Source: Bacteroidota bacterium (GTDB lineage: Bacteria; Bacteroidota; Ignavibacteria; Ignavibacteriales; Ignavibacteriaceae). From it: a DNA stretch of 64,000 bases. How positions within the stretch are numbered: the first letter of the stretch is position 1; each line of letters begins with the position of its first letter. The translations under genes were made by a program, and so were the position numbers. Below are positions 2,986-27,780 of the stretch, piece after piece. The notes beneath the pieces were generated by a model. The model did no database searches and was not told the origin of the DNA. It was given only the letters and a program-made list of their open reading frames with translations. The stretch spans positions 62,001 through 126,000 of the forward strand of contig JAJYDC010000005.1 in assembly GCA_021777835.1 (NCBI GenBank), given 5' to 3'.

Positions 2986-3587
2986 AAAACTTCGACAACT
3001 CATTTTTAACAGATAATATAAGACTAATTGCCGGTGTTGATGAAGTCGGAAGGGGACCACTTGCCGGTCCGGTAGTAAGTGCCTCTGTAATTTTTTCGCC
3101 CGATGATTATATTGAAGGAGTAAATGACTCAAAGCAACTTTCAGAGAGAGAAAGGGAGCAGTTACTTCCCCAAATAATGGATAAGGCAATTTCCTATTCG
3201 GTTGCTGCTGTTTCACATACTAAGATAGATCAGATAAACATATTACAAGCTTCTTTGCTATCCATGAAGATTGCTGTAAACAGGCTACAGATTCAGCCGC
3301 ATTTAATACTCATAGACGGGAATAAGTCCTTTCAATGCTCAGTAAAAACTATCCCAATTGTCAAAGGAGATTCGAAATCCTTTGCAATTGCTGCCGCCTC
3401 GATAATTGCCAAGGTTGCCCGCGATAGGTTAATGAAAAGGCTTGACAGGCATTTTCCTAATTATCTTTGGGGGAAAAACAAGGGCTACGCTACGAAGGAG
3501 CATATTGAAGCAATTAGGATATATGGAGCTTCGTCGCTTCACAGGAGGACTTTTTTGAAAAACATAGCCTTGTTAGAAAAAGCATAA
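2982..3587 (+). CDS. rnhB: Ribonuclease HII
   Basis: A 201-residue enzyme that cuts the RNA strand of RNA-DNA hybrids and starts removal of single ribonucleotides misincorporated in DNA. The family signature GVDEVGRGPLAGPVV is at residues 18-32, with the acidic quartet D20, E21, D112 (LIDGNK) and D130 (KGDSKS). Length matches the family (about 200). The ATG overlaps the UbiA stop by four bases. The following gene is yraN, a frequent neighbour of rnhB in bacteria, which supports the call. Confidence 0.97.
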   Translation: MKNFDNSFLTDNIRLIAGVDEVGRGPLAGPVVSASVIFSPDDYIEGVNDSKQLSEREREQLLPQIMDKAISYSVAAVSHTKIDQINILQASLLSMKIAVNRLQIQPHLILIDGNKSFQCSVKTIPIVKGDSKSFAIAAASIIAKVARDRLMKRLDRHFPNYLWGKNKGYATKEHIEAIRIYGASSLHRRTFLKNIALLEKA

Positions 3588-10893: not shown

Positions 10894-13800
10894 ATGGACA
10901 TATTCCAATTTCATAACAATGTAATCAACGAATATTCCGATTATATTAATTCATTTATTTTTATTAATGATGAAAGAATTAAAGAAAAAGTTGTAAAAGA
11001 ATTAGCTGCTCAAAAGCTCTGGCCTGATCCTCTCATACAATTTAACCCTTCCTATGAAAAATCAATTTCAATTGAAAAGTTGGCGGAACAAAATATAGTA
11101 GTTAATGAATTGGCTCAAATGTTCAAAGGTTTCCAGTTATATAAGCATCAGGAAGAAGGATTAAGGCTTGGAACTTCAAATAAAGATTTTATTGTTACTT
11201 CGGGAACGGGTTCAGGTAAGTCTCTCATTTTCATGGGAACAATTTTTAACCATTTATTTAAAGCGAAAGATCAAACAAGCGGAGTAAAAGCATTAATAGT
11301 CTATCCAATGAATGCTCTAATTAATTCACAAACCTTAGAGCTTGATAAGTGGAAAGAAAATTACGAAGCTAATTCAAATAAAAAATTCCCTTTTACATAT
11401 AAACAATATACCGGTCAAGAAGGAACAAGCGAACGTGAGGAAATAAAAAATAATCCTCCGGATATACTCCTTACTAATTATATGATGCTGGAGTTAATTC
11501 TAACCCGTCTCGCAGAAAATTCAATTAAAAATTCAATTGCAGATAATCTGCGTTTTCTTGTATTCGACGAATTGCATACTTATCGAGGCAGACAGGGTGC
11601 CGATGTATCTTTACTTATTCGCAGGATAAGATCACTTTCAAAGAATTCTTTGGTTTGTATCGGCACATCAGCAACAATGATTTCCGGGGAATCATTTAAG
11701 GAGCAAAAAAGCAAAGTCGCTGAAGTTGCCACAAGAATATTCGGAAAGGTTTTTTCAAGCGACCAAATTATAAGTGAAAAGCTTGTAAATTCTTTGGGCT
11801 ATTCTAAAGAAAACTTCTCACAACTTCAAAGCTCTCTTAAGAATGAAATATTTACCTCAGCGAGATACGAGGATATTATAAAACATCCTCTTGCAATGTG
11901 GATTGAAAGCAATATCGCATTAACAGTTGATAACGGTAATTTTATAAGGCGAAAACCACTCAACTTAAATTCAATTGCCGCAATATTATCTGAAGAAACA
12001 AAAGAATCTCTTCAAATTTGTTTATCGCAATTAAATAAACTTTTGATATGGGCAAATTATTTAAATAATAAGAAAGAAGATGATCGTGTTCCCGTACTTC
12101 CTTTTAAGCTGCATCAGTTTATCAGTCAAACTGGTTCTGTTTATATTACTCTTGATTCAAAAGAAAGCAGAAAAATTACCCTAGATCCGGGAAGTTTCAT
12201 AAAAGACGAAAAGAATGAGAAGAAACCTATATATCCCGTTGTATTTAGCCGCACGTCAGGCCATGAGTTTATTTGTGTAAGAAAAAATTTATCTAAGAGT
12301 ATTCTTGAACCAAGAGAATTCAACCAAAAAATATCTGAGGAAGAAGAAGAAAGTTTTGATCAAGGATATTTGATTATGGATTACGGTTCACAAAATATTT
12401 GGGATGAAAGCCAAATTATTAATCTTCCTGATTCATGGGTCAAAGAATCAAAAAACGGTGAATTATCCGTGGCTAAGGAATATAAACGAAGAATTCCGCA
12501 AAGAATTTATTTTGACGAATTAGGAAATTTTTCGTCTAATGAAAATAACTTGCCATTTAAGGGATGGTATATAACTGCTCCACTAACATTCGATCCAACC
12601 GGCGGTGCATTTTTTGATAATAAAACCTCTGAAAGCACAAAGCTTTCTAAACTTGGAACTGAAGGACGAAGTACATCTACAACGGTTCTTTCATTTTCCA
12701 TTATTAAAGCACTAAATTCGTCAGGTATAGATTATTCGGAACAAAAAATTCTTAGTTTTACGGATAACAGGCAGGATGCTGCACTTCAAGCCGGTCACTT
12801 TAATGATTTTATTAAAATAGGTCGATTGCGTTCAGCAATATATCATGCGTTAAAAAATGCAGATGAAAATATTCTTGATTATTCTACAATAGCTAACTCT
12901 GTTTTTGAATCGCTTAATATTCCGCAGGAATTATATGCTAAACAGCCTTCTCCGCTTCCATTTCCAGCAGAGGAGAACAAAAAAGCATTCAAAAATTATA
13001 TAATGTACCGAATATTAATTGATCTTAAGAGGGGTTGGCGGGTTATTTTACCTAACCTAGAACAGTGCGCTCTTCTTCAGATCAGTTATAAATATTTGGA
13101 TGAAACAATTGCCGTTGAAGATTTTTGGAAAGAAACTCCGATAATTAAGGATATGAATATCGAAGAGCGCAGAGATTTTATTCAACAAACACTGGATTAT
13201 TTTAGAAGAAATTATGCTCTTTCTTACTCACTTCTTGAAAATAGTGAAATAGAACGTCAACAAAACACCTTCCGTGAAAAAATCAATCCTGAGTGGGGGT
13301 TAGATAAAGATGAAGAAATCGACAAACCTAATTTCATGCGGGTTGAAGCCTTTAGGTCTAATACTCAAAAAATATTTACTGTAAGCCTGGGACAGCAAAG
13401 TTATTTTGGAAAGTATCTGAAATCTATTGCTAAAAAATACAATTATGATTTAAGCAGGATTTACAGTGATTATGTCCATAATCTATTAAATTTATTAGTT
13501 CAGGCAAACTGGCTAACATTTAAGGAGATCAATTCTGGCGGATCAAAGTTAAAACTATACCAGTTAAAAGTTGATTCAATAATTTGGAAAATCGGGGATA
13601 GAAGTAATATAATTCCCGATAAAATTAGGGTACTTTCATATAAAGATAATATTCAAAGACCGAATCACTTTTTCCAATCATTTTATTTACAAAGATTCGA
13701 TTTATTAAAAAATCTTGAAGCTAAAGAACATACTGCGCAAATCAAGAATGAAGCAAGAAAAGATAGGGAAGAGAGATTCCGCAAAGGAGAGATTTCACTT

Positions 13801-16020
13801 CTTAATTGTTCTCCCACAATGGAACTAGGAATAGATATTTCTACGCTCAATATAGTACACTTAAGGAATGTGCCTCCAAATCCATCTAATTATGCTCAGC
13901 GAAGCGGTCGTGCCGGAAGAAACGGACAAGCAGCATTAATATTTACATTCTGTTCAAACTATTCTCCCCATGATCAGCATTTCTTTAAAAATCCCGCCGA
14001 TATGGTTGCCGGAGTTGTATCATCTCCGAGATTGGATTTGTTAAACCAAGAATTACTTTGTTCTCATTTAAACGCAATTTTTCTTTCAGAAGTTGGTATT
14101 GGTTCATTAAATGATTCCCTTGCTAATCTTATTATTATGGAAAAGCTGGAAGAATTACCGCTTAAAGATGAAGTCATTGAAAAACTAAATATTTCAGCTG
14201 AGAGGAAAAGAATCGTACACTCTCTTTATAAGAAAGCAATTCAGGATTTAATTCCTGAATTGGAAAAACTTAGTTGGTTCTCTGATGAGTGGATAATTAG
14301 ACAAATTAATGATGCTCCAAGAACTTTTGATAAATCATTAAATCGTTGGCGTGAATTATTTAGATCGGCAACTTTGCAGCTTTACAACGCCCAGCAAATT
14401 ATCAATGATCCTATTCTATCAAACGACTCTAAAGAAAAAAGGCAGGCTTACGTTGATCAGAAACAAGCTAACAGGCAGCTCGACCTTCTAAAGAATTCTA
14501 ATTCTGATTCGCACACAAATTCTCAGTTATCCGAATTCTATCCATACCGTTATTTGGCATCTGAAGGTTTTCTCCCGGGTTACAATTTTACCCGTTTACC
14601 TTTACGTGTTTTTATTCCTAAAGGCGAAGAAGGTGAATTTATTTCAAGGGCAAGGTTCCTTGCTATCCGAGAATTTGGTCCGGGAAATATTATATATCAT
14701 GATGGCGCAAAATATAAGGTATCGCAATCTCTTCTTAGCGATGTTGAAAATAAATTTGAGAAGATCAAGGTCAGTAAATCCAGCGGTTACGCTTTGATGA
14801 AAGGCGATTATAATCTTGAGTATTGTCCTTTTACAGAATCATTACTAAACAACGATGATAATAGGGAATTATATACAGATCTTCTCCCTATGTCAGAAAA
14901 TCGCACTATTCAGTTGGATCGAATTAATTGCGAAGAAGAAGAAAGACGCTCGCTTGGCTTTGATATTAAGACATATTTTACAGTAGAAGGAGGTCTTAAA
15001 AGAATTAGGACTGTTTATGTAAATGACGAAAAAGATCAGCTACTTAAAATCAAATACATACCTGCAGCTACTTTAATAAAAATTAATGAAAAATGGCGTA
15101 TCCGCAAAGAACCCGGTTTCTTAATCAATATAAAAACAGGTTTTTGGAAAAAAGAATCTGTTATGGCAAATAAGGATCAGGAAATAAAAAATATTAAGCG
15201 TGTCAGGCTTTTTACGACAGATACAGCTGATGCTTTATATATTCATCCTATGAAAGCTCTTTCTTTCAAGGAGGAATTCGGTGCGGAAAGTATTATTACT
15301 TTGATTTATTCCCTCAAACGTGCAATTGAAAACGTATTTCAGGTTGAATCAAATGAAATCGGTGTGGAAGTTATGGGAACTCCAGAATGGCCGAATATCT
15401 TTATTTATGAAGCTTCTCAAGGAAGTCTCGGTATTTTGTCTCAAGTAGTAGAAAAAGTTGATACCTTCAAAAAGATTGTTCAAGAAGCTTATAAGATATG
15501 CTATTTTGAAAATGGTATTGATACCAGACCGGATATTGGCCCAGCTACCTATTCTGATTTACTCAGCTATTATAATCAACATCACCATTTGATCATTGAC
15601 AGGCAGTTAATCAAACAGCCTTTGGAAAGATTATTATCTTGTCAGTTTGAAATTTCAACTAACCCGGATTTTGAGAATAATGATGAGCAGTATAAGTATC
15701 TTTTGGATAGAATTGATGTTAATTCAACAACCGAACGGAAATTTTTAGATTATCTTTATAATAACGGTAAAAAGCTTCCTGATCAAGCCCAAGTAGAGAT
15801 TCCGGGCATTTATGTTAAACCTGATTTCTTTTATCAGAAAGAAAATGCCTGTATCTTTTGCGATGGAACTCCGCATGATAATCCGGAAATAAAAAGACAA
15901 GATACTTTAAAAAGAGAAGCTTTGTTAAATGCCGGATATGATGTTGTAACGTATTACTATAAAAATTCGTTGGAAGACCTAATAAAAATCCGTAATGATA
16001 TATTTATTAATATAAGATAA
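10894..16020 (+). CDS. DEAD/DEAH helicase with DUF1998 region and Vsr-like C-terminal nuclease domain
   Basis: A 1708-residue superfamily 2 protein. Walker A TSGTGSGKS lies at about residues 103-112, the DEAD-box variant FDELHTYRGRQGAD at about 222-236, and helicase C motifs SPTMELGIDIS and YAQRSGRAGRNGQ at about 973-1015. A DUF1998-like segment follows (about 1440-1540, FIYEASQGSLGIL). The tail (about 1610-1708: TTERKFLDYL, KPDFFY, ACIFCDGTPHDN, LLNAGYDVVTYYY) has the strand pattern of Vsr/DUF559-type nucleases. Such helicases occur in DISARM (as separate DrmA and DrmB) and Druantia (DruE). The cysteines of MrfA-type DUF1998 are not seen. The next gene starts at the base after its stop, so the two are one operon. 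Defence against phage DNA is inferred from context. Confidence 0.85.
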   Translation: MDIFQFHNNVINEYSDYINSFIFINDERIKEKVVKELAAQKLWPDPLIQFNPSYEKSISIEKLAEQNIVVNELAQMFKGFQLYKHQEEGLRLGTSNKDFIVTSGTGSGKSLIFMGTIFNHLFKAKDQTSGVKALIVYPMNALINSQTLELDKWKENYEANSNKKFPFTYKQYTGQEGTSEREEIKNNPPDILLTNYMMLELILTRLAENSIKNSIADNLRFLVFDELHTYRGRQGADVSLLIRRIRSLSKNSLVCIGTSATMISGESFKEQKSKVAEVATRIFGKVFSSDQIISEKLVNSLGYSKENFSQLQSSLKNEIFTSARYEDIIKHPLAMWIESNIALTVDNGNFIRRKPLNLNSIAAILSEETKESLQICLSQLNKLLIWANYLNNKKEDDRVPVLPFKLHQFISQTGSVYITLDSKESRKITLDPGSFIKDEKNEKKPIYPVVFSRTSGHEFICVRKNLSKSILEPREFNQKISEEEEESFDQGYLIMDYGSQNIWDESQIINLPDSWVKESKNGELSVAKEYKRRIPQRIYFDELGNFSSNENNLPFKGWYITAPLTFDPTGGAFFDNKTSESTKLSKLGTEGRSTSTTVLSFSIIKALNSSGIDYSEQKILSFTDNRQDAALQAGHFNDFIKIGRLRSAIYHALKNADENILDYSTIANSVFESLNIPQELYAKQPSPLPFPAEENKKAFKNYIMYRILIDLKRGWRVILPNLEQCALLQISYKYLDETIAVEDFWKETPIIKDMNIEERRDFIQQTLDYFRRNYALSYSLLENSEIERQQNTFREKINPEWGLDKDEEIDKPNFMRVEAFRSNTQKIFTVSLGQQSYFGKYLKSIAKKYNYDLSRIYSDYVHNLLNLLVQANWLTFKEINSGGSKLKLYQLKVDSIIWKIGDRSNIIPDKIRVLSYKDNIQRPNHFFQSFYLQRFDLLKNLEAKEHTAQIKNEARKDREERFRKGEISLLNCSPTMELGIDISTLNIVHLRNVPPNPSNYAQRSGRAGRNGQAALIFTFCSNYSPHDQHFFKNPADMVAGVVSSPRLDLLNQELLCSHLNAIFLSEVGIGSLNDSLANLIIMEKLEELPLKDEVIEKLNISAERKRIVHSLYKKAIQDLIPELEKLSWFSDEWIIRQINDAPRTFDKSLNRWRELFRSATLQLYNAQQIINDPILSNDSKEKRQAYVDQKQANRQLDLLKNSNSDSHTNSQLSEFYPYRYLASEGFLPGYNFTRLPLRVFIPKGEEGEFISRARFLAIREFGPGNIIYHDGAKYKVSQSLLSDVENKFEKIKVSKSSGYALMKGDYNLEYCPFTESLLNNDDNRELYTDLLPMSENRTIQLDRINCEEEERRSLGFDIKTYFTVEGGLKRIRTVYVNDEKDQLLKIKYIPAATLIKINEKWRIRKEPGFLINIKTGFWKKESVMANKDQEIKNIKRVRLFTTDTADALYIHPMKALSFKEEFGAESIITLIYSLKRAIENVFQVESNEIGVEVMGTPEWPNIFIYEASQGSLGILSQVVEKVDTFKKIVQEAYKICYFENGIDTRPDIGPATYSDLLSYYNQHHHLIIDRQLIKQPLERLLSCQFEISTNPDFENNDEQYKYLLDRIDVNSTTERKFLDYLYNNGKKLPDQAQVEIPGIYVKPDFFYQKENACIFCDGTPHDNPEIKRQDTLKREALLNAGYDVVTYYYKNSLEDLIKIRNDIFINIR

Positions 16021-18828
16021 ATGAGTACTCAAACTTTTCAACCAGGCTCTCTAGTTAAATTACGTAATCGTGAGTGGGTTGTAATGCCTTCTAATGATAA
16101 CGATCTTCTGATTATAAAACCGCTCGGAGGTTCAGAGGAAGAAACAACCGGAATATTCTTACCGCTTGCTTTTGAAGATGAGAAGCCCATCATAGCCGAA
16201 TTTCCTTACCCCGCAGTTAAAGATATTGGTAACTATACAACCGCTAATCTTCTTTATAATGCAGCCAGGCTTTCTTTCAGAAATGTTTCCGGTCCGTTTC
16301 GCTGCATGGGCAAGCTCTCATTCAGGCCGCGTTCTTACCAGGTAGTGCCTCTCGTAATGTCTCTAAAACAAGATTTTGTCCGCTTGCTTATTGCGGATGA
16401 TGTTGGAGTAGGTAAAACTATAGAAGCTTTACTTATTGTTAGAGAATTATTAGACCGCGGTGAAATTAAACGTTTCGCTGTAGTTTGCCTTCCTAATCTT
16501 TGCGAACAATGGCAGCAGGAATTAAAAGATAAGTTTTCAATTGATGCAGTTATTATCAGGTCAAGTACTGCCGCCCAGCTAGATAGAAAAATTCAGGGAG
16601 ACGGTTCTATCTTTCGTGAATATCCTTACCAGGTTGTTTCAATAGATTTTATTAAGTCCGGACCTAAAAGAGAGATTTTTCTTAATGAGTGTCCTGAACT
16701 TATTATAGTTGATGAGGCCCATACTTGCGCGAGACCTGTAGGGCAAAGTGAAAAGCAGCAGCAACGACATCATTTGGTTCACGCTATTGCTGCAAAGCAA
16801 AACCAACATTTAATTATGCTGACGGCTACACCCCATAGCGGCAAACAAGAAGAGTTCCAATCATTGCTCGGATTACTGAAAAATGAATTTGAAACTGTGG
16901 ACTTAATCGCCTCACCTCAAGCCAAAAGAAAAGAAGTCTCTGACCATCTTATTATTAGGAGAAGAGCTGATGTTGAGCAATGGCTTGATGAAAAAACTAC
17001 TTTCCCTCTACGTGATTCTAAGGAAGTCGAATACAATCTCTCGGAAGACTATAAAATAATTCTTAATGACCTGCTTACTTTTGCTCGCAAAATAAATACA
17101 TCGGATTTACAAACGTCTGCTAAGAAAAAATTCCGCTACTTCGCCATACTTTCTCTTTTACGCGGTGTTATGTCCAGTCCCTCTGCCGGTATGGAAATGC
17201 TTTCTAAGAAAGCGTTAAATATTAGTGAAGAAGCATTTGAAGAAGAAGTCATTCAAAATCCTGTAGCGGATACTGAAGGTACTGAATCTGATGCATTGCC
17301 GCTGGAAATTCTCGATAAATCTGAGCTTAAAAAATCAGAATCAAAATTTCTAAATGACCTGGTTGCAAAGCTTGAAAATGTTAAGGACAATAAAGCAGCA
17401 GAGGCTATTAAGATTACATTGCAGTGGCTTAAAGAAGGATTCAATCCTGTTATCTTCTGTCGCTTCATTGAAACAGCAAAATATCTTGGCGATTATTTCA
17501 AAGAGAAACTTCCCAAGAACACTGACTTACTGGTTATTACCGGTGAAATGGTTGATGAGCAGCGCCGTGAGAAAATTGATGAATTCGAAAACTCTAAAAA
17601 TAAACGTGTTCTTATTTCAACAGATTGTTTAAGTGAAGGAATTAACCTTCAGCATTTTTTTAACGCAGTTTTGCATTATGATTTACCCTGGAACCCGAAT
17701 CGCTTAGAACAAAGGGAAGGGCGTGTAGATCGTTTCGGTCAGACTGCAGAAGTAGTAAAGGCATATCTTTTATGGGGGAAGGATAATCCGATTGATTCCG
17801 TCGTATTAAAAATCCTTCTGCGTAAAGCAAGGGAAATTAGAAAGCAGACCGGCATCTCTGTCCCTTTCCCTGAAGACAGCCAGAGCATACTCGATAGTTT
17901 ATTAAATGCTGTTATTCTCAATCCCAATGCAGTAAAGATTGATAACCAAATGGAACTTGGCTTTGATGACCCTGAAATTCAAACCGGTGAAGTTAATATT
18001 AACAACGCCTATGAGAAAGCAAGTGAGAGAGATAAAATAACCCGCAGTATATTTGCACAGCATTCAATCAAAGCAAACGAAATAGAAAAAGATCTTAAGG
18101 AAGTTGATGAAGCTGTGGGTAACCCTGTTGCCGTTAAACAATTTGTAATTGATGCGGTAACTAATCTTGGCGGTCAAATTATTCCTTATAAATCAGGTTA
18201 TAGATTATACACCACGAACTTAAATTCTATATTCAAATCAATTTTTAATTATAAAGATGAAATCCTTATTACTTTTGAATCCCCCGCGCCTGAAGAATTC
18301 CTTTATATAGGAAGAAACAGCTTATTTGTTGAACAGCTTTCGCACTATATTCTTAATAAATCTTTGGTAAGCAACGGACACAAACCGATCGCCGCAAGAG
18401 CTGCGGTTATTCCTTCGAAGAGTATCAAAACAAAAACTACAATTATTCAGATCCGGATTAGAAATATCATATCCGATAAAGCCAACGGGAAACAATTAGT
18501 AGCTGAAGAAATGATTCTTTGGGGATATGAAAACAATATTAGCGAAAGAAAGTTTATTGCTCATGAAGAATGTAAAACTCTTTTAGCAGAGTTGGTACCT
18601 TCGTCGGATTATGAAAAACCTAGGCAAGAATCATTATTTAACCATGAAATAGAAACAATAAAAAATTCTAAAGATGTTCTTGCTGAGATTGTAAGGGAGA
18701 GGTCGTTTAAATTAATTGAAGCTCATGAACGGTTTAGAAAGCTAGTCGGCGGCAGTAAATATCAATTAATTGAACCTGTACTTCCCCCGGATGTTTTAGG
18801 AATTTATATAATTATGCCTCAATTATAG
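16021..18828 (+). CDS. SNF2-type helicase/ATPase of a defence system
   Basis: 935 residues. Residues 1-115 form a family-specific N-terminus (SLVKLRNREWVVMPS, PFRCMGKLSFRPRSYQ). The SNF2 ATPase has LLIADDVGVGKTIEALL (Walker A, about 121-137), IIVDEAHT (about 225-232) and LTATPHSGKQEEF; helicase C has VIFCRFIETAKYL (about 476) and NRLEQREGRVDRFGQT (about 560-575). SNF2-type translocases pair with DUF1998 helicases and adenine methylases in DISARM-like loci, where the DISARM counterpart is DrmD. This N-terminus differs from the DrmD form I recall, so the symbol is withheld. It abuts the helicase gene with no spacer and is followed by fic after 31 bases. Confidence 0.85.
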   Translation: MSTQTFQPGSLVKLRNREWVVMPSNDNDLLIIKPLGGSEEETTGIFLPLAFEDEKPIIAEFPYPAVKDIGNYTTANLLYNAARLSFRNVSGPFRCMGKLSFRPRSYQVVPLVMSLKQDFVRLLIADDVGVGKTIEALLIVRELLDRGEIKRFAVVCLPNLCEQWQQELKDKFSIDAVIIRSSTAAQLDRKIQGDGSIFREYPYQVVSIDFIKSGPKREIFLNECPELIIVDEAHTCARPVGQSEKQQQRHHLVHAIAAKQNQHLIMLTATPHSGKQEEFQSLLGLLKNEFETVDLIASPQAKRKEVSDHLIIRRRADVEQWLDEKTTFPLRDSKEVEYNLSEDYKIILNDLLTFARKINTSDLQTSAKKKFRYFAILSLLRGVMSSPSAGMEMLSKKALNISEEAFEEEVIQNPVADTEGTESDALPLEILDKSELKKSESKFLNDLVAKLENVKDNKAAEAIKITLQWLKEGFNPVIFCRFIETAKYLGDYFKEKLPKNTDLLVITGEMVDEQRREKIDEFENSKNKRVLISTDCLSEGINLQHFFNAVLHYDLPWNPNRLEQREGRVDRFGQTAEVVKAYLLWGKDNPIDSVVLKILLRKAREIRKQTGISVPFPEDSQSILDSLLNAVILNPNAVKIDNQMELGFDDPEIQTGEVNINNAYEKASERDKITRSIFAQHSIKANEIEKDLKEVDEAVGNPVAVKQFVIDAVTNLGGQIIPYKSGYRLYTTNLNSIFKSIFNYKDEILITFESPAPEEFLYIGRNSLFVEQLSHYILNKSLVSNGHKPIAARAAVIPSKSIKTKTTIIQIRIRNIISDKANGKQLVAEEMILWGYENNISERKFIAHEECKTLLAELVPSSDYEKPRQESLFNHEIETIKNSKDVLAEIVRERSFKLIEAHERFRKLVGGSKYQLIEPVLPPDVLGIYIIMPQL

Positions 18829-18859
18829 ATGAATAATAAAATGTTCAAAAGGAATAGCT

Positions 18860-19948
18860 ATGGCAAAAGATTTTAATCCAAATAAACCGTTTAATCAATT
18901 ACCCTCATTACCGCCGGATTTTAGTTTTGACGATGTCGAAATTCTTAAAAAAGTTAATCGTGCTAACATTGCCTTATCAAAACTCAGCGGTATTGCTATG
19001 GCAATTCCTAACCGTAAGCTGCTAATAGAACCATTAACAGTGCGCGAAGCTGTTGCAAGCTCCGGCATTGAAAATATTAATACAACTGTAGAGGAGGTTT
19101 TCCAGGCTTCTCTGTTTGACGAAAGCAGAATTACTAAAGCGCAGAAAGAAACTCTTTATTACCGCGATGCTCTTCTTTCCGGTTATGAAATGCTTAATCA
19201 AAAAGGCTTCCTTAATACTAACTCCTTTATAAAAATCCATTCTGTTCTTGAACCGGATAAAAAAGGAATTAGAAGAATCCCCGGGGTAAAAATTATCAAT
19301 CGTGCTAATAATGAGACTCTTTATACTCCGCCTGATGGAGAATCGACAATTAGAAATCTTCTAAAAAACTTTGAGAATTATTACAACTCTCCCGATGATG
19401 ATGTAGATTCCTTAATTAAAGTCGCTGTTTGCCATTATCAGTTTGAATCTATTCATCCTTTCCTTGATGGAAACGGAAGGGTTGGCAGAATCTTAATGGT
19501 TCTTCAGCTTATCCTTGCTAAACGGCTGGAACTGCCTATCCTTTTTATTAGCGGTTATATTAATAAAAATCGCGCTGAGTATTATCGTTTATTAAGAGAA
19601 GTAACTATTAAAGGTAATTGGAAAGCATGGGTAAATTACATCCTTACTGCTATAGAAGATCAATCTCTTGAAACTACTTCTACCGTTATTAAGATTCGTG
19701 ATCTAATGCAAGACTACCGTGATAAGTTAAAATCCAAATTGCCAAAGATATACTCCGCTGACCTTGTGGAATTTATTTTCACATATCCGTTTTATAATCA
19801 GAAGATTATGATGGAGGTCTTTTCTGTCTCTCGTAAAACTTCAGCTTTATATTTTTCGCTTTTGGAAGAGAACAATTTTATTACTTCAATGAAGATAGGA
19901 AGAGATTTGATTTATTATGCTCCTAGATTTGTTAATCTGTTAAAATGA
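18860..19948 (+). CDS. Fic family protein with N-terminal autoinhibitory motif
   Basis: 362 residues. The Fic core holds HPFLDGNGRVGR at 199-210, the complete HxFx(D/E)GNGRxxR active site that transfers AMP (or another nucleotide-derived group) to a target hydroxyl. S67-x-x-x-E71-N72 (SSGIEN) matches the (S/T)xxxE(G/N) inhibitory helix, placed N-terminally, so this is an auto-inhibited class II Fic. The C-terminus (about 290-362) looks like a winged helix. AAAAGGA precedes the ATG at 18860. It sits between the SNF2 helicase and methyltransferase genes of the island. The target is unknown; its role could be signalling, toxin-like or regulatory. Its stop codon opens the first of four palindromes. 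Confidence 0.92.
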   Translation: MAKDFNPNKPFNQLPSLPPDFSFDDVEILKKVNRANIALSKLSGIAMAIPNRKLLIEPLTVREAVASSGIENINTTVEEVFQASLFDESRITKAQKETLYYRDALLSGYEMLNQKGFLNTNSFIKIHSVLEPDKKGIRRIPGVKIINRANNETLYTPPDGESTIRNLLKNFENYYNSPDDDVDSLIKVAVCHYQFESIHPFLDGNGRVGRILMVLQLILAKRLELPILFISGYINKNRAEYYRLLREVTIKGNWKAWVNYILTAIEDQSLETTSTVIKIRDLMQDYRDKLKSKLPKIYSADLVEFIFTYPFYNQKIMMEVFSVSRKTSALYFSLLEENNFITSMKIGRDLIYYAPRFVNLLK

Positions 19949-20084
19949 TATGCGTAATGTTTACGTATATCACCTTAAATATGCGTAAATATTTTAATAT
20001 TTTACGCATATATTATTTGACAAATATTATGTACAGCTATTGTGCATATACTAAGTCCATGCACAAAAACTCAAATATTTTGAG
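19946..20084. repeat. Cluster of four consecutive palindromes downstream of fic
   Basis: Hairpin 1: TGATATGCGTAA at 19946-19957 with TTACGTATATCA at 19961-19972 (one wobble pair). Hairpin 2: ATATGCGTAAA at 19979-19989 with its exact complement at 20001-20011. Hairpin 3: TTGTGCAT at 20040-20047 with ATGCACAA at 20059-20066. Hairpin 4: CTCAAA-TAT-TTTGAG at 20070-20084. Three share GCATATA at 20006, 20044 and 20084, about 40 bases apart. The sites may bind a regulator such as the winged helix of the Fic protein, or end its transcript. Confidence 0.75.
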
Positions 20085-20113
20085 CATATAATAACTGAAG
20101 TTAAAATTGGAAT

Positions 20114-20153
20114 GTCATCCCCCTCCACAAGAAAGAGGGGAACACGGGAATCC
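20114..20153. repeat. Diverged palindromic repeat copy A (ATTCCC-type family)
   Basis: Starts GTCATCCCCCTC and ends CGGGAATCC, with an internal CCCCTC/GAGGGG stem. It is a degenerate relative of the 25-base palindrome described next, in the same orientation. Confidence 0.6.
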
Positions 20154-20178
20154 AAAAATACTTAGTTAACTCAACATT

Positions 20179-20203
20179 GTCATTCCCGTGAAAACGGGAA
20201 TCC
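20179..20203. repeat. Palindromic repeat copy B (core ATTCCC-N8-GGGAAT), upstream of GIY-YIG gene
   Basis: The 25-base element GTC-ATTCCC-GTGAAAAC-GGGAAT-CC ends seven bases before the ATG of the GIY-YIG gene. The same core occurs as the dRS3 element of Neisseria and in many other genomes. Confidence 0.9.
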
Positions 20204-20210
20204 ATGGACC

Positions 20211-20501
20211 ATGAAACAGTATTATACTTACATAATGGCAAGCAAAAGGAATGGGACACTATACATTGGTGTTACAAATGATTTAATAAGAAGGGTCTAT
20301 GAACACAAAAATGAACTTATTGATGGATTTACAAAAAAATATAAAGTCAAAATTCTAGTCCACTTTGAAATTTTAAATGAAATAAGTGAAGCCATCGCTA
20401 GAGAAAAAAGACTCAAGAAATGGAATAGACAATGGAAAATAGAATTGATCGAAAAGGATAATCATGAATGGAAAGATTTATACGAAGAGTTAACCAAATA
20501 G
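20211..20501 (+). CDS. GIY-YIG nuclease family protein
   Basis: A 96-residue single-domain nuclease. YYTYIM (4-9) and LYIGVTNDLIRRVYEHK (17-33) supply the GIY-YIG strands and the catalytic Arg region; REKRLKKWNRQWK (about 64-76) holds the conserved Glu and basic helix. Stand-alone proteins of this size resemble the UPF0213/YhbQ group. The gene lies between two same-orientation palindromic repeats (20179-20203 and 20534-20558) and interrupts the otherwise tight defence operon, so it may have come in as a small mobile unit with those repeats. That link is inference. The ATG at 20211 starts within eight bases of repeat B. Confidence 0.9.
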   Translation: MKQYYTYIMASKRNGTLYIGVTNDLIRRVYEHKNELIDGFTKKYKVKILVHFEILNEISEAIAREKRLKKWNRQWKIELIEKDNHEWKDLYEELTK

Positions 20502-20533
20502 ATTCTAATATAATTAGAAACTACTATCTTAAT

Positions 20534-20558
20534 GTCATTCCCGCGGAAGCGGGAATCC
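20534..20558. repeat. Palindromic repeat copy C, downstream of GIY-YIG gene
   Basis: GTC-ATTCCC-GCGGAAGC-GGGAAT-CC, a perfect-stem copy in the same orientation as copy B, 33 bases after the GIY-YIG stop. Confidence 0.9.
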
Positions 20559-20579
20559 ATAGAAACTTTATAGTGCAAT

Positions 20580-20600
20580 TTGTCATCCCCGGACTTGCTC
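20580..20600. repeat. Half copy of a related palindrome (copy D)
   Basis: TGTCATCCCCGGACTTG starts like a common longer palindrome whose right arm (CCGGGGATCC-type) is missing here. It lies 22 bases after copy C. Confidence 0.5.
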
Positions 20601-20647
20601 TTACTTTTATCGAAAGTCTAAATGAATAAAAATGTAATGAAATTTTT

Positions 20648-23600
20648 ATGAAAACATCCTCTATACGTGTTGAAGGAAATATTATTTCTCCCGAGCTTTT
20701 CGATAAGCTCGATTCAAAAGATATTCTCGGTCAAAATCCATCCGATTTCGGCTTCGAAAGATCATTTAAGGTAAAAGACGATATTGCCCGAGCCTGGGCT
20801 GACGCTAAAGATCAGTGGAATATTTTCAAACGCAGAACGGAAAATTTAACTGAAAGCCAAAGCGGTATTGAAGAGACAAGAAAATTCTGGATAATACCGC
20901 TACTTGAGAATCTCGGATATAAATTAGAATTCCAGCGCTCATCCGAAATTGTAAACGAAAAATCCTATGCAATAAGCCACCGTGTAGAAGCTCTCGATAA
21001 TTTCCCGGTTCACATAATGGGTGTAAATTATAATCTTGATAAACGCCGCGAAACCGGCGGACCAAGAATGTCTCCGCATGCCTTACTTCAAGAATATCTT
21101 AATGTAACAGAACATCTTTACGGTATTGTTACTAACGGTTACTTTTTAAGAATACTTCGTGATTCAGGAAAGCTTGTCCGCTTAAGTTATCTTGAATTCA
21201 ATCTTCAGAGGATGCTTGAAGATGATCTCTATGCCGAATTTTCAATAATGTACCGGCTTATTCATTCTTCCCGTATGCCTAAAAAGCAGACGGAAGCAGA
21301 ACAAAGTATTTTTGAGCAGTATCATCAGGACGCCATCGAATCCGGCTCACGTATCCGTGAAAAACTAAGTGCTGCAGTTGAAAAATCAATTAAAATAATT
21401 GCCAATGGATTTCTTGCTCACCCTGCCAACGAACAATTACGAAACGCCATCATCAACTGTCATTCCCGCAAAACCTTGGGTGATAGTGACTGTCATTCCC
21501 GCGAAAGCGGGAATCTACCTCTTCAAAGTAGTGAATCCCTTTCCCCCGAAGAATTCTTTAAACAACTTCTGCGCTTCATCTATAGAATTTTATTCCTTCT
21601 TGTAATAGAAGAAAGAGACATCGTCTATCCCGATGTTAACCATCTCAGCAATGTCATTCCCGTCCCCACGAAAGTAAAGAACAGCCCTAGTAATGTCATT
21701 CTCGCGAAAGCGGGAATCCATACTTTTGAAGAATCCGCATACCTCAAAAAGATCTACTACAACAACTACAGCATTTCCCGTTTAAGAAAGCTTGCGGATA
21801 AAATATATTTCTTTGATGACAAACTTGACGATCTCTGGATTTCATTAAAAAACACATTCAACATTTTTATTGAAGAACGTTACGCAAAGAAGCTCGGCAT
21901 CTATCCGCTTGGCGGTGATCTTTTTTCTCCGGGTGCAATCGGTTTGCTCAGTCAATCTCAGCTTGATAATAAAGTATTGTTGGAATGCATCCATAACTTA
22001 AGTTTATTCGAAAGCCCGAATGGCAAAGATGTAATCCGTGTTAATTATGCCGCACTTAATGTGGAAGAATTCGGCTCTGTTTACGAAGGACTTCTTGAGT
22101 ATGACGGCAAGTTTAACATCCAAAACCAGCAAATAACATTTGAATTTATTGAAAGTTCAGGAAGGGCATCGTCCGGTTCACATTATACACCGGAAGAACT
22201 TGTTCAGCCTCTGATAAAACATTCCTTGGATTACATAATCGAAGATAAATTGGCAGCCGCCAAAATGTCATTCACGACGGGTTCAAAAAATCCTCCGTCA
22301 TTCCCGCGAAAGCGGGAATCCAATGATTCAGAACCTTTGGTGAATGTAATAGAAGCACAAAGCAATGCGCTTCTCAGCATAAAAGTCTGCGATGTAGCAT
22401 GCGGCAGCGGACACATCCTCCTATCCGCTGCACGGAGAATTGCAATTGAACTTGCTCGCGTAAGAACCGGCGAAGACCAGCCTTCACCAGAACCATACCG
22501 TCATGCTTTGCGAGATGTAATTAACCACTGCATTTACGGAGTTGATAAAAACCCTCTTGCCGTTGAGCTCTGTAAAGTTGCCCTATGGCTGGAAGCTTAC
22601 AATCCCGGTTTACCTCTTAGCTTTTTGGATCACAAAATTAAATGCGGTGATTCTATCGTGGGACTTGCGAGAAGAGAAGATCTTGAAAAAGGAATTGCTA
22701 ACGAAGCCTTTAAGAAGATGCCGGGTGATGACCCCGAAGTAATAAAATTTCTTGCGAAGAAAAATAAAGATGAAATTGCCGGACAGCTTGAAAACCTTTT
22801 TGATAGAAATGCCGTTGATGAAAACGTAAAACATATTTATTCTCAGTTCAAACAGTTTGACGAATTGCCCGAATTCACTTTGGAAGAAGTAAAAAAGAAA
22901 GCAGAACAGTATGATGTTATGAAAGGCGCCGATTGGTGGCGTTTGAAAGAAGCTGCGGATATTCAAGTATCTCAGTTCTTTATTCCCAAGACGAAGCAGA
23001 ACCAAAATATGCTCACAACATTTTCAGAATATTATAACATATTAAATGGAAATAAAGCGGGGTTTGAATTAAAGACTGCTAACGCAATGGCAATTGCAGC
23101 AGAAAAGAAATTCTTCCATTGGTTTCTTGAATTTCCTGAAGTAATGCAAGAAGGTGGATTTGATTGTATTCTTGGGAACCCGCCGTTTTTAGGTGGATTA
23201 AAGATTTCTTCTCATTATGGTTATAATTTCCTTGAATGGCTAAAATACAATTACCATCCTGCTGGTGGAACTTCTGATTTAGTAGGATATTTTTTTAGAA
23301 GAGTTTTTGTTTTATTAAAAGAAAAGGGATTTCTATCATTAATATCAACTAATACAATTTCGCAAGGGGATACTCGTGAGGGGAGTCTAGCGGAGATTCA
23401 AAGAAGAGGTGGAGAAATTATTTATGCTTTAAAAAGTATGAAATGGCCCGGTATTGCTATTCTTGAAATCTCACAAGTAGCCATTGTCAAAGGGAAATGG
23501 AATGGAAAAAGATTTTTGAATAAATCTATTTCGGAATACATAAGCTCATATTTAGATGATAATCAATTAATAAGAAAACCAAACAAGTTAATTGTAAATA

Positions 23601-24718
23601 AAGATTTAAGTTTTATCGGGAGTTATTTATTTGGAGATGGTTTCCTATTAAGCGAAAATGACGTCCTCAAAATGATTTCAAATAATTCTAATAACAAACA
23701 AGTATTGTTCCCTTATATCAGCGGCGAAGATCTCTATTCAAGATTTGATCAGTCTCCATCAAGGTGGACAATTAACTTTTTTGATTGGAATATTGAAGAG
23801 GCAAAATTATTTGTTGAACCATTTGAAGAAGTAGAAAAAAAAGTATTTCCTTTTAGAAAAAGTGTCAAAGAAACAAATAATACTGCAAAGAGAAGGAGAA
23901 AATTTTGGTGGCAATACGGAGCTGGCTCAGTAAATCTATATAAAGAAATAGAAGGGTTAGATAGAGTCTTAGCCGTTGCACAAACTAGTAAAACATTAGC
24001 TTTTACTTTTTTACCACATGGTTATGTTTACTCATTGATGACTGTGATCTTTCCATTTACAAAATATTTTCAGTTTAGCATCCTTCAATCAATGGCTCAT
24101 TACATTTGGGCTTGGACATTTGGATCTACGATGAAAACTGATCTCAGATATACACCATCAGATATATTCGAGACCTTTCCATTCCCGCAAAACTCTTCTA
24201 AAGAAACTGAATTAGAACTTGAAAAGATCGGACAAGAATACTACGAGTACCGCAGCAAGCTTATGCAGGATATGAAGCTTGGCTTAACAAAAACATATAA
24301 CCTTTTTCATACACCACAGCTTACAACAGACAACAAACAACTTACAAAAGCCAACTTAAAAATCCCGATAGAGCAGGCTATAAAGGACCTAGGAACACTA
24401 CGCCAACTCCACAAACAAATGGACGAAGCCGTCCTAAAAGCCTACGGTTGGAGTGCAGACGTAATTGCGAACGGCGCGAAGCAATCTCAACCGCCAATAG
24501 ACTTGCGGCACGATTTCTACGAAGTAGACTACCTCCCCGAAAACGACAGAATCCGTTACACAATACATCCAGAAGCCCGGAAGGAAATACTAAAACGCCT
24601 GCTGGAACTTAACCACAAAATCCACGCGGAAGAAGTTGCTCTGGGTTTGTTGGATAAAAAGAGAAAGAAGAAAAATAAAACGTTAACTGTTGATAAAAAT
24701 CAAGGAGGGTTGTTTTAA
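20648..24718 (+). CDS. Eco57I-type N6-adenine DNA methyltransferase carrying translated palindromic repeats
   Basis: 1356 residues. The N-terminus (about 1-190) is family-specific (MSPHALLQEYLN, HLYGIVTNGYFLRILRD). The methylase core has motif I VCDVACGSGHILLSAARR (about 579-596) and motif IV ILGNPPF (about 841-847), the NPPF form of N6-adenine enzymes; the C-terminal third resembles target-recognition regions. No PD-ExK nuclease motif was recognised, so cutting, if any, would lie with the helicase-nuclease upstream. In an immune system it would mark self DNA. Palindromic repeats are translated at about residues 268-290 (CHSRESGNL), 335-358 (VILAKAGIH), 540-560 (PSFPRKRES) and 1272-1281 (VIANGAKQSQ), all between conserved blocks, so the enzyme could still work. 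Its start has only a weak ribosome-binding site. Confidence 0.87.
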   Translation: MKTSSIRVEGNIISPELFDKLDSKDILGQNPSDFGFERSFKVKDDIARAWADAKDQWNIFKRRTENLTESQSGIEETRKFWIIPLLENLGYKLEFQRSSEIVNEKSYAISHRVEALDNFPVHIMGVNYNLDKRRETGGPRMSPHALLQEYLNVTEHLYGIVTNGYFLRILRDSGKLVRLSYLEFNLQRMLEDDLYAEFSIMYRLIHSSRMPKKQTEAEQSIFEQYHQDAIESGSRIREKLSAAVEKSIKIIANGFLAHPANEQLRNAIINCHSRKTLGDSDCHSRESGNLPLQSSESLSPEEFFKQLLRFIYRILFLLVIEERDIVYPDVNHLSNVIPVPTKVKNSPSNVILAKAGIHTFEESAYLKKIYYNNYSISRLRKLADKIYFFDDKLDDLWISLKNTFNIFIEERYAKKLGIYPLGGDLFSPGAIGLLSQSQLDNKVLLECIHNLSLFESPNGKDVIRVNYAALNVEEFGSVYEGLLEYDGKFNIQNQQITFEFIESSGRASSGSHYTPEELVQPLIKHSLDYIIEDKLAAAKMSFTTGSKNPPSFPRKRESNDSEPLVNVIEAQSNALLSIKVCDVACGSGHILLSAARRIAIELARVRTGEDQPSPEPYRHALRDVINHCIYGVDKNPLAVELCKVALWLEAYNPGLPLSFLDHKIKCGDSIVGLARREDLEKGIANEAFKKMPGDDPEVIKFLAKKNKDEIAGQLENLFDRNAVDENVKHIYSQFKQFDELPEFTLEEVKKKAEQYDVMKGADWWRLKEAADIQVSQFFIPKTKQNQNMLTTFSEYYNILNGNKAGFELKTANAMAIAAEKKFFHWFLEFPEVMQEGGFDCILGNPPFLGGLKISSHYGYNFLEWLKYNYHPAGGTSDLVGYFFRRVFVLLKEKGFLSLISTNTISQGDTREGSLAEIQRRGGEIIYALKSMKWPGIAILEISQVAIVKGKWNGKRFLNKSISEYISSYLDDNQLIRKPNKLIVNKDLSFIGSYLFGDGFLLSENDVLKMISNNSNNKQVLFPYISGEDLYSRFDQSPSRWTINFFDWNIEEAKLFVEPFEEVEKKVFPFRKSVKETNNTAKRRRKFWWQYGAGSVNLYKEIEGLDRVLAVAQTSKTLAFTFLPHGYVYSLMTVIFPFTKYFQFSILQSMAHYIWAWTFGSTMKTDLRYTPSDIFETFPFPQNSSKETELELEKIGQEYYEYRSKLMQDMKLGLTKTYNLFHTPQLTTDNKQLTKANLKIPIEQAIKDLGTLRQLHKQMDEAVLKAYGWSADVIANGAKQSQPPIDLRHDFYEVDYLPENDRIRYTIHPEARKEILKRLLELNHKIHAEEVALGLLDKKRKKKNKTLTVDKNQGGLF
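21459..21516. repeat. In-gene palindromic repeat pair E (half copy + full copy)
   Basis: A half copy, GTCATTCCCGCAAAA..., begins at 21459 and a full 25-base copy with core ATTCCC-GCGAAAGC-GGGAAT occupies 21492-21516. The full copy is read as CHSRESGNL, with the codon boundary one base before the G of GTC. Confidence 0.9.
21653..21719. repeat. In-gene palindromic repeat pair F (half copy + full copy)
   Basis: A half copy, GTCATTCCCGTCCCC, begins at 21653 and a full copy with one mismatch (ATTCTC left arm) lies at 21695-21719. It is read as VILAKAGIH, with codons in register with GTC. Confidence 0.88.
22267..22321. repeat. In-gene palindromic repeat pair G (half copy + full copy)
   Basis: A degenerate half copy, GTCATTCACGACGGG, starts at 22267 and a perfect full copy lies at 22297-22321. 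It is read as PSFPRKRES, the third forward frame. Confidence 0.88.
24461..24488. repeat. In-gene repeat of a second family (VIANGAKQSQ type)
   Basis: GTAATTGCGAACGG followed by CGCGAAGCAATCTC is a copy of the widespread ATTGCGAnCGnnGCGAAGCAAT-type palindrome, read in frame as VIANGAKQSQ in the methyltransferase, just after LKAYGW. Confidence 0.8.
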
Positions 24719-24769
24719 AGACAAATAGGTGTTGGTATATTTTCAATTAATATTAAAAGGTACTATCAA

Positions 24770-26095
24770 ATGGAGAATAATAAGTTTATTACTATAATTA
24801 AATCCCAAGATATAATAAATCTTTTATGGAAAGCAGAATTTAAGATTATTTATTCATCAATAAATATTCATCAGGAAATTGCCATTGCATTATCTGAGGC
24901 TGCAAAAAAGGGACTTCAAGTTGATGTTATTATTGATACCGACGAAAATAATTACAGAAACGGTTATGGAGATATCCAATCCATTGATATACTTAAGAAT
25001 ACAGGGGTTAAAGTCTATGAAGTTGAAGGAAATAATGTTTCTTTTGTTATAATTGATGAAACGGGATTTTTTATTTTTCCTCAAAGCCGAATTTCTATAG
25101 GAGATCCATCAGGACCAAATGCTATCCTAATAGATAAAATCACTCAGCTAAAACTTCTTTCACATTATTTCCCTCCTAAGTCCAAACAGGAGAAAGAAAA
25201 ATTAATTGATAAAGCACTGGATTTACATTCAAGTAATAAGTTTGAAATTAATACATTAATTGATGACTTAGAAGAAGGTATAACAGAGATAAAACTTCAA
25301 AATCTTGATATAAAAAAGTTGGAAGCAACCAAAGAGAATTTAAGAATAAATCCCCCGTTACACCCTGATTTAAAAAGACTTATTAATACTTACACTTCAA
25401 AAATTCAATTCGTTGAATTAAAATTTGTCGGATCAGATTTTCAGATAACTAAAATATCTCTTCCTCCCAAAACATTACCTTTTAAGGATGCAAAATTAAT
25501 TAAATTATTAGAATCCAAAATGAAATTGTTCGACGATGTTGAATCTAATGACGACTTAAGAAAGCTTGAATTAATTAAAGAAAAAGTTGACAATCTTAGA
25601 GTAAAATTAAATGATAAAACAAAAAAGAGTGGATATTTAATACCTATTAGTTGCAGAAATAAAAGTATAATTAAAATGGATGACAGGAAAAAATTTCTAA
25701 ATGAAGTAGGAAAAATTAGGAAAGAAATTACAGACTATAAAAACTCTACAGCAAATAAACTTGAAGTTGCTATACTAAATGCAAAAAGATTGTTAATAGG
25801 AAACCTAATTGATTTTCTTAAATTATATCCACCTGAAGAGTTTAAAAAATTTGAGCGGGAAACTCTATTTTATAAAATTGAGGATTATAGTCAAAATATA
25901 ATATCAAAATTAAAAATTCCAGATTCAAATGATTTGCTTAAAAAACTAGAATTAACGTGCAATTTTTATGATCTAACTTTTGAGGATTTTAAAGATGAAG
26001 AATTAATCCAGGAGTTTAGAGAAAAAGAAATTTTGAAAAGTAAAGAGTTGAATGATATAGTTTCTAGTAAAAATGCATTTGAAGTTGCAAAATAA
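24770..26095 (+). CDS. PLD-fold protein lacking the HKD motif, helical C-terminus
   Basis: 441 residues. The first 120 or so read like a phospholipase-D-type fold: SSINIHQEIAIALSEAAKKG (strand then helix), VDVIIDTDENNYRNGYG and VSFVIIDETGFFIFPQSR. At the place of HxKxxxxD the sequence is NNVSFVIIDE, so the catalytic His and Lys are missing and this half-site should be inactive. The rest (about 140-441) is Lys/Glu-rich, helical and without known motifs. DISARM includes a PLD protein (DrmC) with an intact HKD; this one is longer and inactive. It follows the methyltransferase after 51 bases, with an AAGGT ribosome-binding site, so it belongs to the operon. Confidence 0.6.
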   Translation: MENNKFITIIKSQDIINLLWKAEFKIIYSSINIHQEIAIALSEAAKKGLQVDVIIDTDENNYRNGYGDIQSIDILKNTGVKVYEVEGNNVSFVIIDETGFFIFPQSRISIGDPSGPNAILIDKITQLKLLSHYFPPKSKQEKEKLIDKALDLHSSNKFEINTLIDDLEEGITEIKLQNLDIKKLEATKENLRINPPLHPDLKRLINTYTSKIQFVELKFVGSDFQITKISLPPKTLPFKDAKLIKLLESKMKLFDDVESNDDLRKLELIKEKVDNLRVKLNDKTKKSGYLIPISCRNKSIIKMDDRKKFLNEVGKIRKEITDYKNSTANKLEVAILNAKRLLIGNLIDFLKLYPPEEFKKFERETLFYKIEDYSQNIISKLKIPDSNDLLKKLELTCNFYDLTFEDFKDEELIQEFREKEILKSKELNDIVSSKNAFEVAK

Positions 26096-26202
26096 GATTA
26101 CCTTAAATCGAGCTAATTATAAAATATATTTAGCGAGTTTTACAACTTATTATTTGAATTTAATTTCAGTTAATAAAAATATCATAAAGGGGATCAAACA
26201 AA

Positions 26203-27057
26203 ATGAATTACACCAGTGAAATCTTTCTATCAAAAGATGATGGTTTATTAATCCCTGAAATCGGCTCTTGGGGTGAAAATAAATATCAAATCATATATGA
26301 TTATAATGTTCTCTTTTCAACTGGGATGAAAAAAATTTGGCATAATAGGATTTATATTGATTTATACTCCGGAAGCGGCAAAGCAAGAATACGTAATACT
26401 AATAAGATACTAAATTCATCAGCTCTTTTAGCATTAAAAGTCCCGGATCAGTATGATAAATATATATTTTGCGATATTGACGAGAATAATATTAATTCAT
26501 TACAAAAGAGAGTTAATAATGAATTTCCAAGCTCAAATGTAAGTTATATCATCGGTGACTGTAATAAAAAAATAGACGATATTCTAAATGAAATTCCGAC
26601 TTATTCTACTAACAACAATGTATTAACTTTTTGTCTAATAGATCCATTTTCTTTGGAAATTGAATTTGAAACAATAAAAAAATTAGGTGAGAATAGGCTT
26701 GTGGATCTTTTAATTCTTTTAGCATTTGGCATGGATGGAAAGCGAAATATTAATCTTTACATAAAAGAAAATAATAACAGAATAGATAATTTTCTTGGTT
26801 TGCCTGATTGGAGAGAGAGATGGATAATTGAGGAGAAAAATGGTACAAATTTAGTTACATTTCTTGCAAATGAATTTACAAATAAAATGAAAAGCCTTAA
26901 TTATAGTCGTTATACAATCAATAATTATATATCAATCCGTTCGGATGAAAAAAATCTACCCTTATATCATTTAATGTTTTTTTCTAAACATCCAACTGGG
27001 TATAAATTTTGGGAAAAAGTTAGAAAAAGAAATATAGAACCGGAGTTAGAATTTTAA
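26203..27057 (+). CDS. tcmP: Three-Cys-motif partner protein TcmP
   Basis: 284 residues. IYIDLYSGSGKA at about 50-61 resembles a SAM-binding glycine loop, followed by KYIFCDIDENN and later LTFCLIDPFSLEI, a DPF motif in the position of a methyltransferase catalytic loop. The family is defined by its constant pairing with a three-Cys-motif Gp37/Gp68-like protein, which is present directly downstream: that ATG begins at the base after this stop. Function is unproven; a nucleic-acid methyltransferase-like role is inferred. AAGGGG precedes the ATG by nine bases. It is 107 bases after the PLD-like gene and may have its own promoter. Confidence 0.85.
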   Translation: MNYTSEIFLSKDDGLLIPEIGSWGENKYQIIYDYNVLFSTGMKKIWHNRIYIDLYSGSGKARIRNTNKILNSSALLALKVPDQYDKYIFCDIDENNINSLQKRVNNEFPSSNVSYIIGDCNKKIDDILNEIPTYSTNNNVLTFCLIDPFSLEIEFETIKKLGENRLVDLLILLAFGMDGKRNINLYIKENNNRIDNFLGLPDWRERWIIEEKNGTNLVTFLANEFTNKMKSLNYSRYTINNYISIRSDEKNLPLYHLMFFSKHPTGYKFWEKVRKRNIEPELEF

Positions 27058-27780
27058 ATGGCGCTTAAATCATCAATAGAATGGACCGAATCAACCTGGA
27101 ATCCTGTAACCGGATGCAGTAAAATAAGCCCCGGTTGCAAATTTTGCTATGCGGAAAGAATGGCAAAAAGACTTAAAGCTATGGGTTCATCAAATTATGA
27201 AAATGGATTTAAACTAGCATTACATGAACATATAGTTGAATTACCTTTAACTTGGAAAAAACCGCAAACAATTTTTGTTAATTCCATGAGCGATCTTTTC
27301 CATAAAAATGTCCCACTTGAATTTATACAAAGAATATTTGAAGTAATGAATAAGGCATATTGGCATAAATTTCAAGTACTGACAAAGAGGTCGGATATCT
27401 TATTAAAATATAATTCAAAACTTAATTGGACAGAAAATATCTGGATGGGTGTCAGTGTAGAAAATGATAAATATACTAACCGAATAGAACATTTAAGAAA
27501 TACGGATGCAAAAACTAAATTCCTATCAGTTGAACCATTGATTGGTCCAATAAATAAATTGGATTTGACAAATATTGATTGGGTAATAGTCGGCGGTGAA
27601 TCCGGTCCCGGCGCGAGACCAATGAAAGAAGAATGGGTTATTAAAATTAAAGATGAATGCAAAAATGCGAAAGTTCCGTTCTTCTTTAAACAATGGGGAG
27701 GCGTGCAGAAAAAGAAAGCCGGGAGATTATTGCAGGGTAAAATCTGGGATCAAATGCCGAATCTTAAAAGGGCGAGTTGA
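27058..27780 (+). CDS. Three-Cys-motif Gp37/Gp68 family protein (DUF5131)
   Basis: 240 residues. [20 protein letters not shown] (14-33) carries C20, C27 and C30, the three-Cys motif that resembles a radical-SAM cluster site with altered spacing. SKFLSVEPL-like [13 protein letters not shown] and [14 protein letters not shown] are typical of the family, first named from mycobacteriophage Gp37/Gp68, and the C-terminus FFFKQWGG is also conserved. The protein pairs with TcmP upstream with no gap. Its reaction is unknown; a radical-based modification of nucleic acid or protein is possible. It is the last plus-strand gene of the island. Confidence 0.9.

Follow-up and report, generated by a model that had tools for sequence, protein, structure and literature searches.

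CGTC-type REPs in frame within a bacterial methyltransferase gene and a neighbouring GIY-YIG nuclease gene as their candidate enzyme

The methyltransferase gene and its inserts

The window, i.e., the whole 64,000-nt stretch of DNA analysed, harbours a methyltransferase gene with in-frame palindromic inserts and, 0.15 kb upstream of it, a small GIY-YIG nuclease gene with palindromes of the same kind on both sides. The features are as follows.

20114..20153, + strand: long imperfect CGTC-type REP upstream of the GIY-YIG gene, pattern GTCATNCC..GGNATCC
20178..20204, + strand: CGTC-type REP, 7 bp before the GIY-YIG ORF, 25/27 consensus matches
20211..20501, + strand: single-domain GIY-YIG nuclease gene, 96 aa, proposed element enzyme (Pfam PF01541, E 1.1e-15)
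20533..20559, + strand: CGTC-type REP downstream of the GIY-YIG gene, 26/27 consensus matches
20582..20600, + strand: putative left half (GTCATCCCCGGACTTGCTC) of a truncated REP of another type, read from the sequence
20648..24718, + strand: methyltransferase gene carrying the inserts, DrmMI-like, type IIG/Eco57I-type (PADLOC DrmMI, E 9.9e-218, 724 bits; Pfam Eco57I, MmeI_Mtase, MmeI_TRD)
21452..21526, + strand: insert 1, 75 bp / 25 aa, half REP (21458-21469), spacer and full REP (21491-21517); gap in homologues
21644..21727, + strand: insert 2, 84 bp / 28 aa, half REP (from 21652), spacer and full REP (21694-21720); gap in homologues
22265..22357, + strand: insert 3, 93 bp / 31 aa, half REP (from 22266), spacer and full REP (22296-22322); gap in homologues
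24458..24496, + strand: insert 4, 39 bp / 13 aa, second-family palindrome GTAATTGCGAACGGCGCGAAGCAATCTC at 24461-24488; gap in homologues

The surrounding stretch (window 10894-27780) is defence-like, with a DruE-like helicase, a DpdE/DrmD-like SNF2 helicase, a SoFic-type Fic, the DrmMI-like methylase and a PDC-M41A/B pair.

The original prediction held that three palindromes lie within the methyltransferase gene, one per forward frame, and all three were located and translated: each full copy spans 27 bp, the one at 21694-21720 with a single core mismatch, and they are read, each from a different forward frame, as CHSRESGN, VILAKAGIH and PSFPRKRES. That they are inserts is likewise borne out by alignment, where inserts 1-3 are absent from five homologues (50-58% identity) and from a same-genus homologue divided between two contigs (58-69% identity over the pieces); these two contigs also show no REP-like heads. 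The same residues in homologues, named in the prediction as what would overturn it, do not appear in the alignment, which rules out ancestral protein sequence. Chance palindromes are ruled out too, by the 25-26 of 27 bases that match the consensus and by their near-absence elsewhere in the genome.

The tolerated loops of the original prediction stay conjectural, although the insert sites do coincide with positions of length variation among homologues. At site 3 the homologue of one relative (G132) holds a different palindrome, GTCATTGCGAGCGGAGCGAAGCAATC, of a second palindrome family, so a single position of this gene family has received two palindrome types. A scan of viral contigs found no methyltransferase homologues for the alignment, and the single-sequence AlphaFold model of methyltransferase residues 1-701 (pLDDT 33.6) was too poor to use.

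As for the insert inventory, the three full copies stood, while truncated 5′ copies, the fourth insert and the copies flanking the GIY-YIG gene had been overlooked. Each of inserts 1-3 has a truncated REP copy on its 5′ side, approximately 30-42 bp upstream of the full copy, a layout that may be a trace of the insertion mechanism. In many of the loci L061-L140, too, a same-strand truncated REP head often precedes a full copy (36 upstream vs 10 downstream, n = 269), sometimes in tandem, as in L089. The insert 4 palindrome has a single match in the window, with 0 expected in shuffles. Its family (GTCATTGCGA..GAAGCAATC) is present in 8-21 copies in some relatives (G198, G201, G132), and in L045 one member and a GIY-YIG gene are 24 bp apart.

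Insertion in different frames does not call for selection. Stop codons are absent from every forward frame of the repeat and interrupt only one of its three reverse frames. With insert lengths that are multiples of three, no special frame selection is needed and in-frame copies survive in coding DNA. One locus of a relative (L091:12668-17274) has very dense REPs within a single 2644-codon open frame, a putative gene.

Repeat class and the adjacent nuclease gene

Judged by their unpaired TGTC or CGTC tag, stem of 8, loop of 4 and tail, the window palindromes are CGTC-type REPs, whose superfamily also takes in Neisseria dRS3 and Rickettsia RPE-4 and RPE-6, equated with CGTC-4 and CGTC-1, respectively (Di Nocera, De Gregorio and Rocco 2013, PMC3733652). 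The trait of many interspersed genomic sites is missing here. Pattern searches over the whole 3.64-Mb genome returned the exact core ATTCCCN8GGGAAT four times, all at window 20182-22319, and, with up to three mismatches to the 25-mer, five copies at the locus plus two ACCC variants on other contigs. This count, proposed together with the original prediction, puts the repeat almost wholly at one locus, nearly confined to 2.1 kb around the GIY-YIG gene, which it also bounds; both points had escaped the prediction.

REPs within protein genes, more than one per gene, have already been reported (PMC3733652), and the in-gene inserts are an ordinary, if fresh, example of known CGTC-REP behaviour. The precedent of Rickettsia palindromic elements was aptly chosen, given that this superfamily comprises RPE-4 and RPE-6 as well; taken as a whole, the earlier interpretation is partly supported. 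The published survey found that CGTC REPs 'apparently lack a dedicated transposase', and none were found when sought beside tyrosine or other transposase genes (PMC3733652).

The GIY-YIG gene is the only such match in the window genome and lies beside the REPs, the nearest of which are both in + orientation, not inverted. Its predicted structure is confident (AF2 pLDDT 94.8), with UPF0213 (1zg2) as best Foldseek match, followed by Slx1 and the UvrC N-domain, the best E-value being only 1.1e-3. PF01541 is present in all 48 sequences compared, across which residues Y7, Y18, H32, E65 and N84 are invariant and R28 nearly so.

GIY-YIG genes and REPs in relatives

The best 80 relatives of the window GIY-YIG protein in GTDB genomes, picked by protein similarity alone, come from many phyla, and in 73 of them a GTCAT-stem-loop-stem-C palindrome lies within 300 bp. 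REP density is 5.95/kb at less than 150 bp from the gene and 0.10/kb at 4-10 kb, an approximately 60-fold enrichment; outside ORFs of at least 100 aa the values are 5.6/kb near the gene vs 0.51/kb. Among 64 possible tags, GTC alone is enriched (167 near the gene, the next tag reaching 3), and 98% of 180 copies near GIY-YIG genes have a C or T at position −1. Stem/loop sizes of 8/4, 8/5 and 9/5 prevail, the tail is C-C/T-A, and conservation begins one base before GTC and stops at CCAG. The commonest arrangement of nearest REPs is + upstream and − downstream (28 loci). Within the phylum of the window, palindromes were found nearby at 15 of 30 GIY-YIG loci vs none of 29 methylase control loci (120 kb).

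Three loci (Rhizobium L150, Novosphingobium L151 and S. meliloti L147) had no REP by the detector used, and the association is therefore not universal. REP type tracks protein similarity weakly (Mantel r 0.20, reached in 3/2000 permutations, with host relatedness left in), and in 22 of 25 loci the REPs farther away are similar to those of the gene itself. Across genomes, the two are modestly linked: a GIY-YIG match occurs in 13 of the 14 REP-rich genomes and in 109 of the 184 others, and G133 combines many REPs with no such match. The N. gonorrhoeae GIY-YIG gene lies within an array of ATTCCCN8GGGAAT repeats, which is the dRS3 pattern. Plasmid records with the GIY-YIG protein include taxa for which CGTC REPs have been described (Azospirillum lipoferum, S. 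meliloti, Neisseria, others); phage records had none. The plasmid collection holds chromosome-sized records labelled as plasmids, such as N. gonorrhoeae at 2.17 Mb and S. meliloti at 3.7 Mb (L149, L147, L216).

This association bears on the idea that the inserts are passive CGTC REPs imported from a REP-rich donor, the GIY-YIG gene being a coincidental co-transfer and RAYT or other transposases moving the REPs. REP-rich relatives do exist, the repeat is limited to an accessory locus and Y1 transposases are matched twice on other contigs of the genome, all of which would fit. We nonetheless regard this idea as improbable in view of the 73 loci in many phyla and of the fruitless published search beside transposase genes (PMC3733652): import itself may have taken place, whereas coincidence alone is disfavoured.

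Relatives also display signs of mobility. Two loci of one genome (L064 and L080) share 81% identity over 363 bp, from outer REP edge to outer REP edge, with unrelated flanks, and the similarity between Shinella and S. meliloti (2942-3321) runs exactly REP to REP. In Azospirillum lipoferum the GIY-YIG/REP unit sits between sufB and sufC, which are adjacent, with neither unit nor REPs, in four Azospirillum relatives; Shinella relatives likewise have the same site without unit or REP. S. meliloti Ak57 (L216:519-678) keeps both REPs and the inner ends of a unit whose gene interior is deleted, adjoining an intact unit, and a same-genus GIY-YIG copy has two internal stops. Defined ends, in the sense of sequence alike between the termini and unlike outside together with empty sites, are found in these relatives, not in the window itself, and no target-site duplication was established.

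The main rival explanation is a free-standing homing GIY-YIG endonuclease that inserts into or near existing REPs; these would serve as its target and owe their origin and movement to another agent. Homing is a classic activity of GIY-YIG nucleases (PMC1564403), unrelated MITEs can carry REP pairs, and two Sphingobium relatives, TomTYG64 and TomTYG74 (L159, L160), keep a lone symmetric palindrome with GTCA at both ends where TomTYG46 has REP-gene-REP. For that reason these two were rejected as clean empty sites; their palindrome looks like a fusion of two inverted REPs. Homing does not readily account for complete REPs, rather than halves, on both flanks and mostly inverted, for copies alike exactly to the outer REP edges, for the REP-free empty sites of Azospirillum and Shinella relatives, or for a deletion derivative that retains both ends, and we deem it unlikely.

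A further possibility is a host-side role for the nuclease, which would process or tidy up REP cruciforms and be retained beside REPs for regulation, not mobility. Its model is similar to nuclease domains of UPF0213, Slx1 and UvrC, Slx1 being active on branched DNA (6seh entry title). Against this stand features that look selfish, namely patchy gene presence with up to 20 copies per genome, duplicates with unrelated flanks, internal stops, deletions and the sufB/sufC insertion, and such a role seems very improbable to us.

The same-genus genome G202 has 203 REP pattern matches. In loci L194-L213, all 20 units examined are REP heterodimers inside a MITE of approximately 150 bp with 16-bp inverted ends (TAACTCATGTTACGCA), and the pattern count suggests about 100 MITE-borne REP pairs. 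GIY-YIG-driven spread was accordingly rejected as the source of REP abundance in this genome. Since the pairs ride on a MITE, REPs can spread by other means.

On the sequence comparisons above, the probable explanation is that CGTC REPs inserted in frame into the methyltransferase gene and belong to a mobile GIY-YIG/REP element, with the GIY-YIG protein as its likely enzyme. Such an element would consist of one GIY-YIG nuclease gene bounded by REPs, typically inverted. The protein would probably bind the YGTC-tagged hairpin when the DNA is single-stranded or forms a cruciform, and cleave at the hairpin edge; new sites would then receive copies of the unit, of its deletion derivatives or of single REPs. 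Single REPs and dimers would be non-autonomous products of the unit. That a 3.6-Mb genome has five REPs within 2.1 kb beside its sole GIY-YIG match suggests local spread or joint import, and the data fit both: most likely, the in-gene copies spread locally from the neighbouring element or arrived with it.

We see an even chance that the scope is wider still, with a stand-alone GIY-YIG nuclease mobilising the whole CGTC-REP superfamily, Neisseria dRS3 and Rickettsia RPE-4/RPE-6 included. Mobile elements of such a class would encode one nuclease and no transposase, would end in hairpin REPs, and would be where in-gene palindromic inserts come from.

Comparison with known systems

The part that matters is the candidate enzyme beside the inserts. 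What is new is a candidate GIY-YIG enzyme with sharp REP boundaries, for repeats whose published survey named none, and it makes CGTC-REP movement directly testable. We found no paper in the open-access literature linking GIY-YIG with REP, MITE, RAYT/REPIN or Rickettsia palindromes; a prior description beyond that literature is possible. CGTC REPs are widespread in bacteria, they shape Neisseria genomes as dRS3, and Rickettsia RPEs add segments to proteins; the repeats account for peptides like SFPRKRES and VIPAKAGI in annotated proteins. If the proposal is true, this type of nuclease would be new as driver of a stand-alone bacterial transposable unit.

The host gene is a strong PADLOC match to DISARM DrmMI. 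However, DrmA, DrmB and DrmC are not the best match of any tested neighbour, these being DruE, DpdE, SoFic and PDC-M41 (PADLOC), and for this reason we do not call the locus DISARM.

With Rickettsia palindromic elements the inserts share in-frame insertion of palindromes in protein genes, the sequence tie to RPE-4/RPE-6 resting on their equation with CGTC-4/CGTC-1 in PMC3733652. They differ in host phylum, in the layout of half copy plus full copy and in the adjacent enzyme candidate.

Free-standing GIY-YIG homing endonucleases of the I-TevI/Seg type have the same catalytic core and a selfish distribution. In contrast, the protein described here has about 96 aa, no extra DNA-binding domain matched in Pfam, REP boundaries, and a presence at unrelated intergenic sites in many phyla.

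The CGTC REPs of the published survey (PMC3733652) agree with those of the window in the C/TGTC tag, the 8-9 bp stem beginning with AT, the loop of 4-5, the CCA tail and several insertions per protein gene. They differ in that no dedicated enzyme is assigned there, whereas here a GIY-YIG gene is bounded by REPs and about five copies sit at one locus.

REPtrons and REPINs (RAYT plus GTAG REPs) offer a parallel in organisation: a lone small gene between tagged palindromes, a REP type that varies with the enzyme, and shortened non-autonomous derivatives. The gene next to the window REPs is a GIY-YIG gene and not a RAYT, the two Y1 matches lying on other contigs. The enzyme is a Y1/HUH tyrosine transposase and the tag GTAG in those systems, whereas here the enzyme is a candidate GIY-YIG nuclease and the tag is YGTC.
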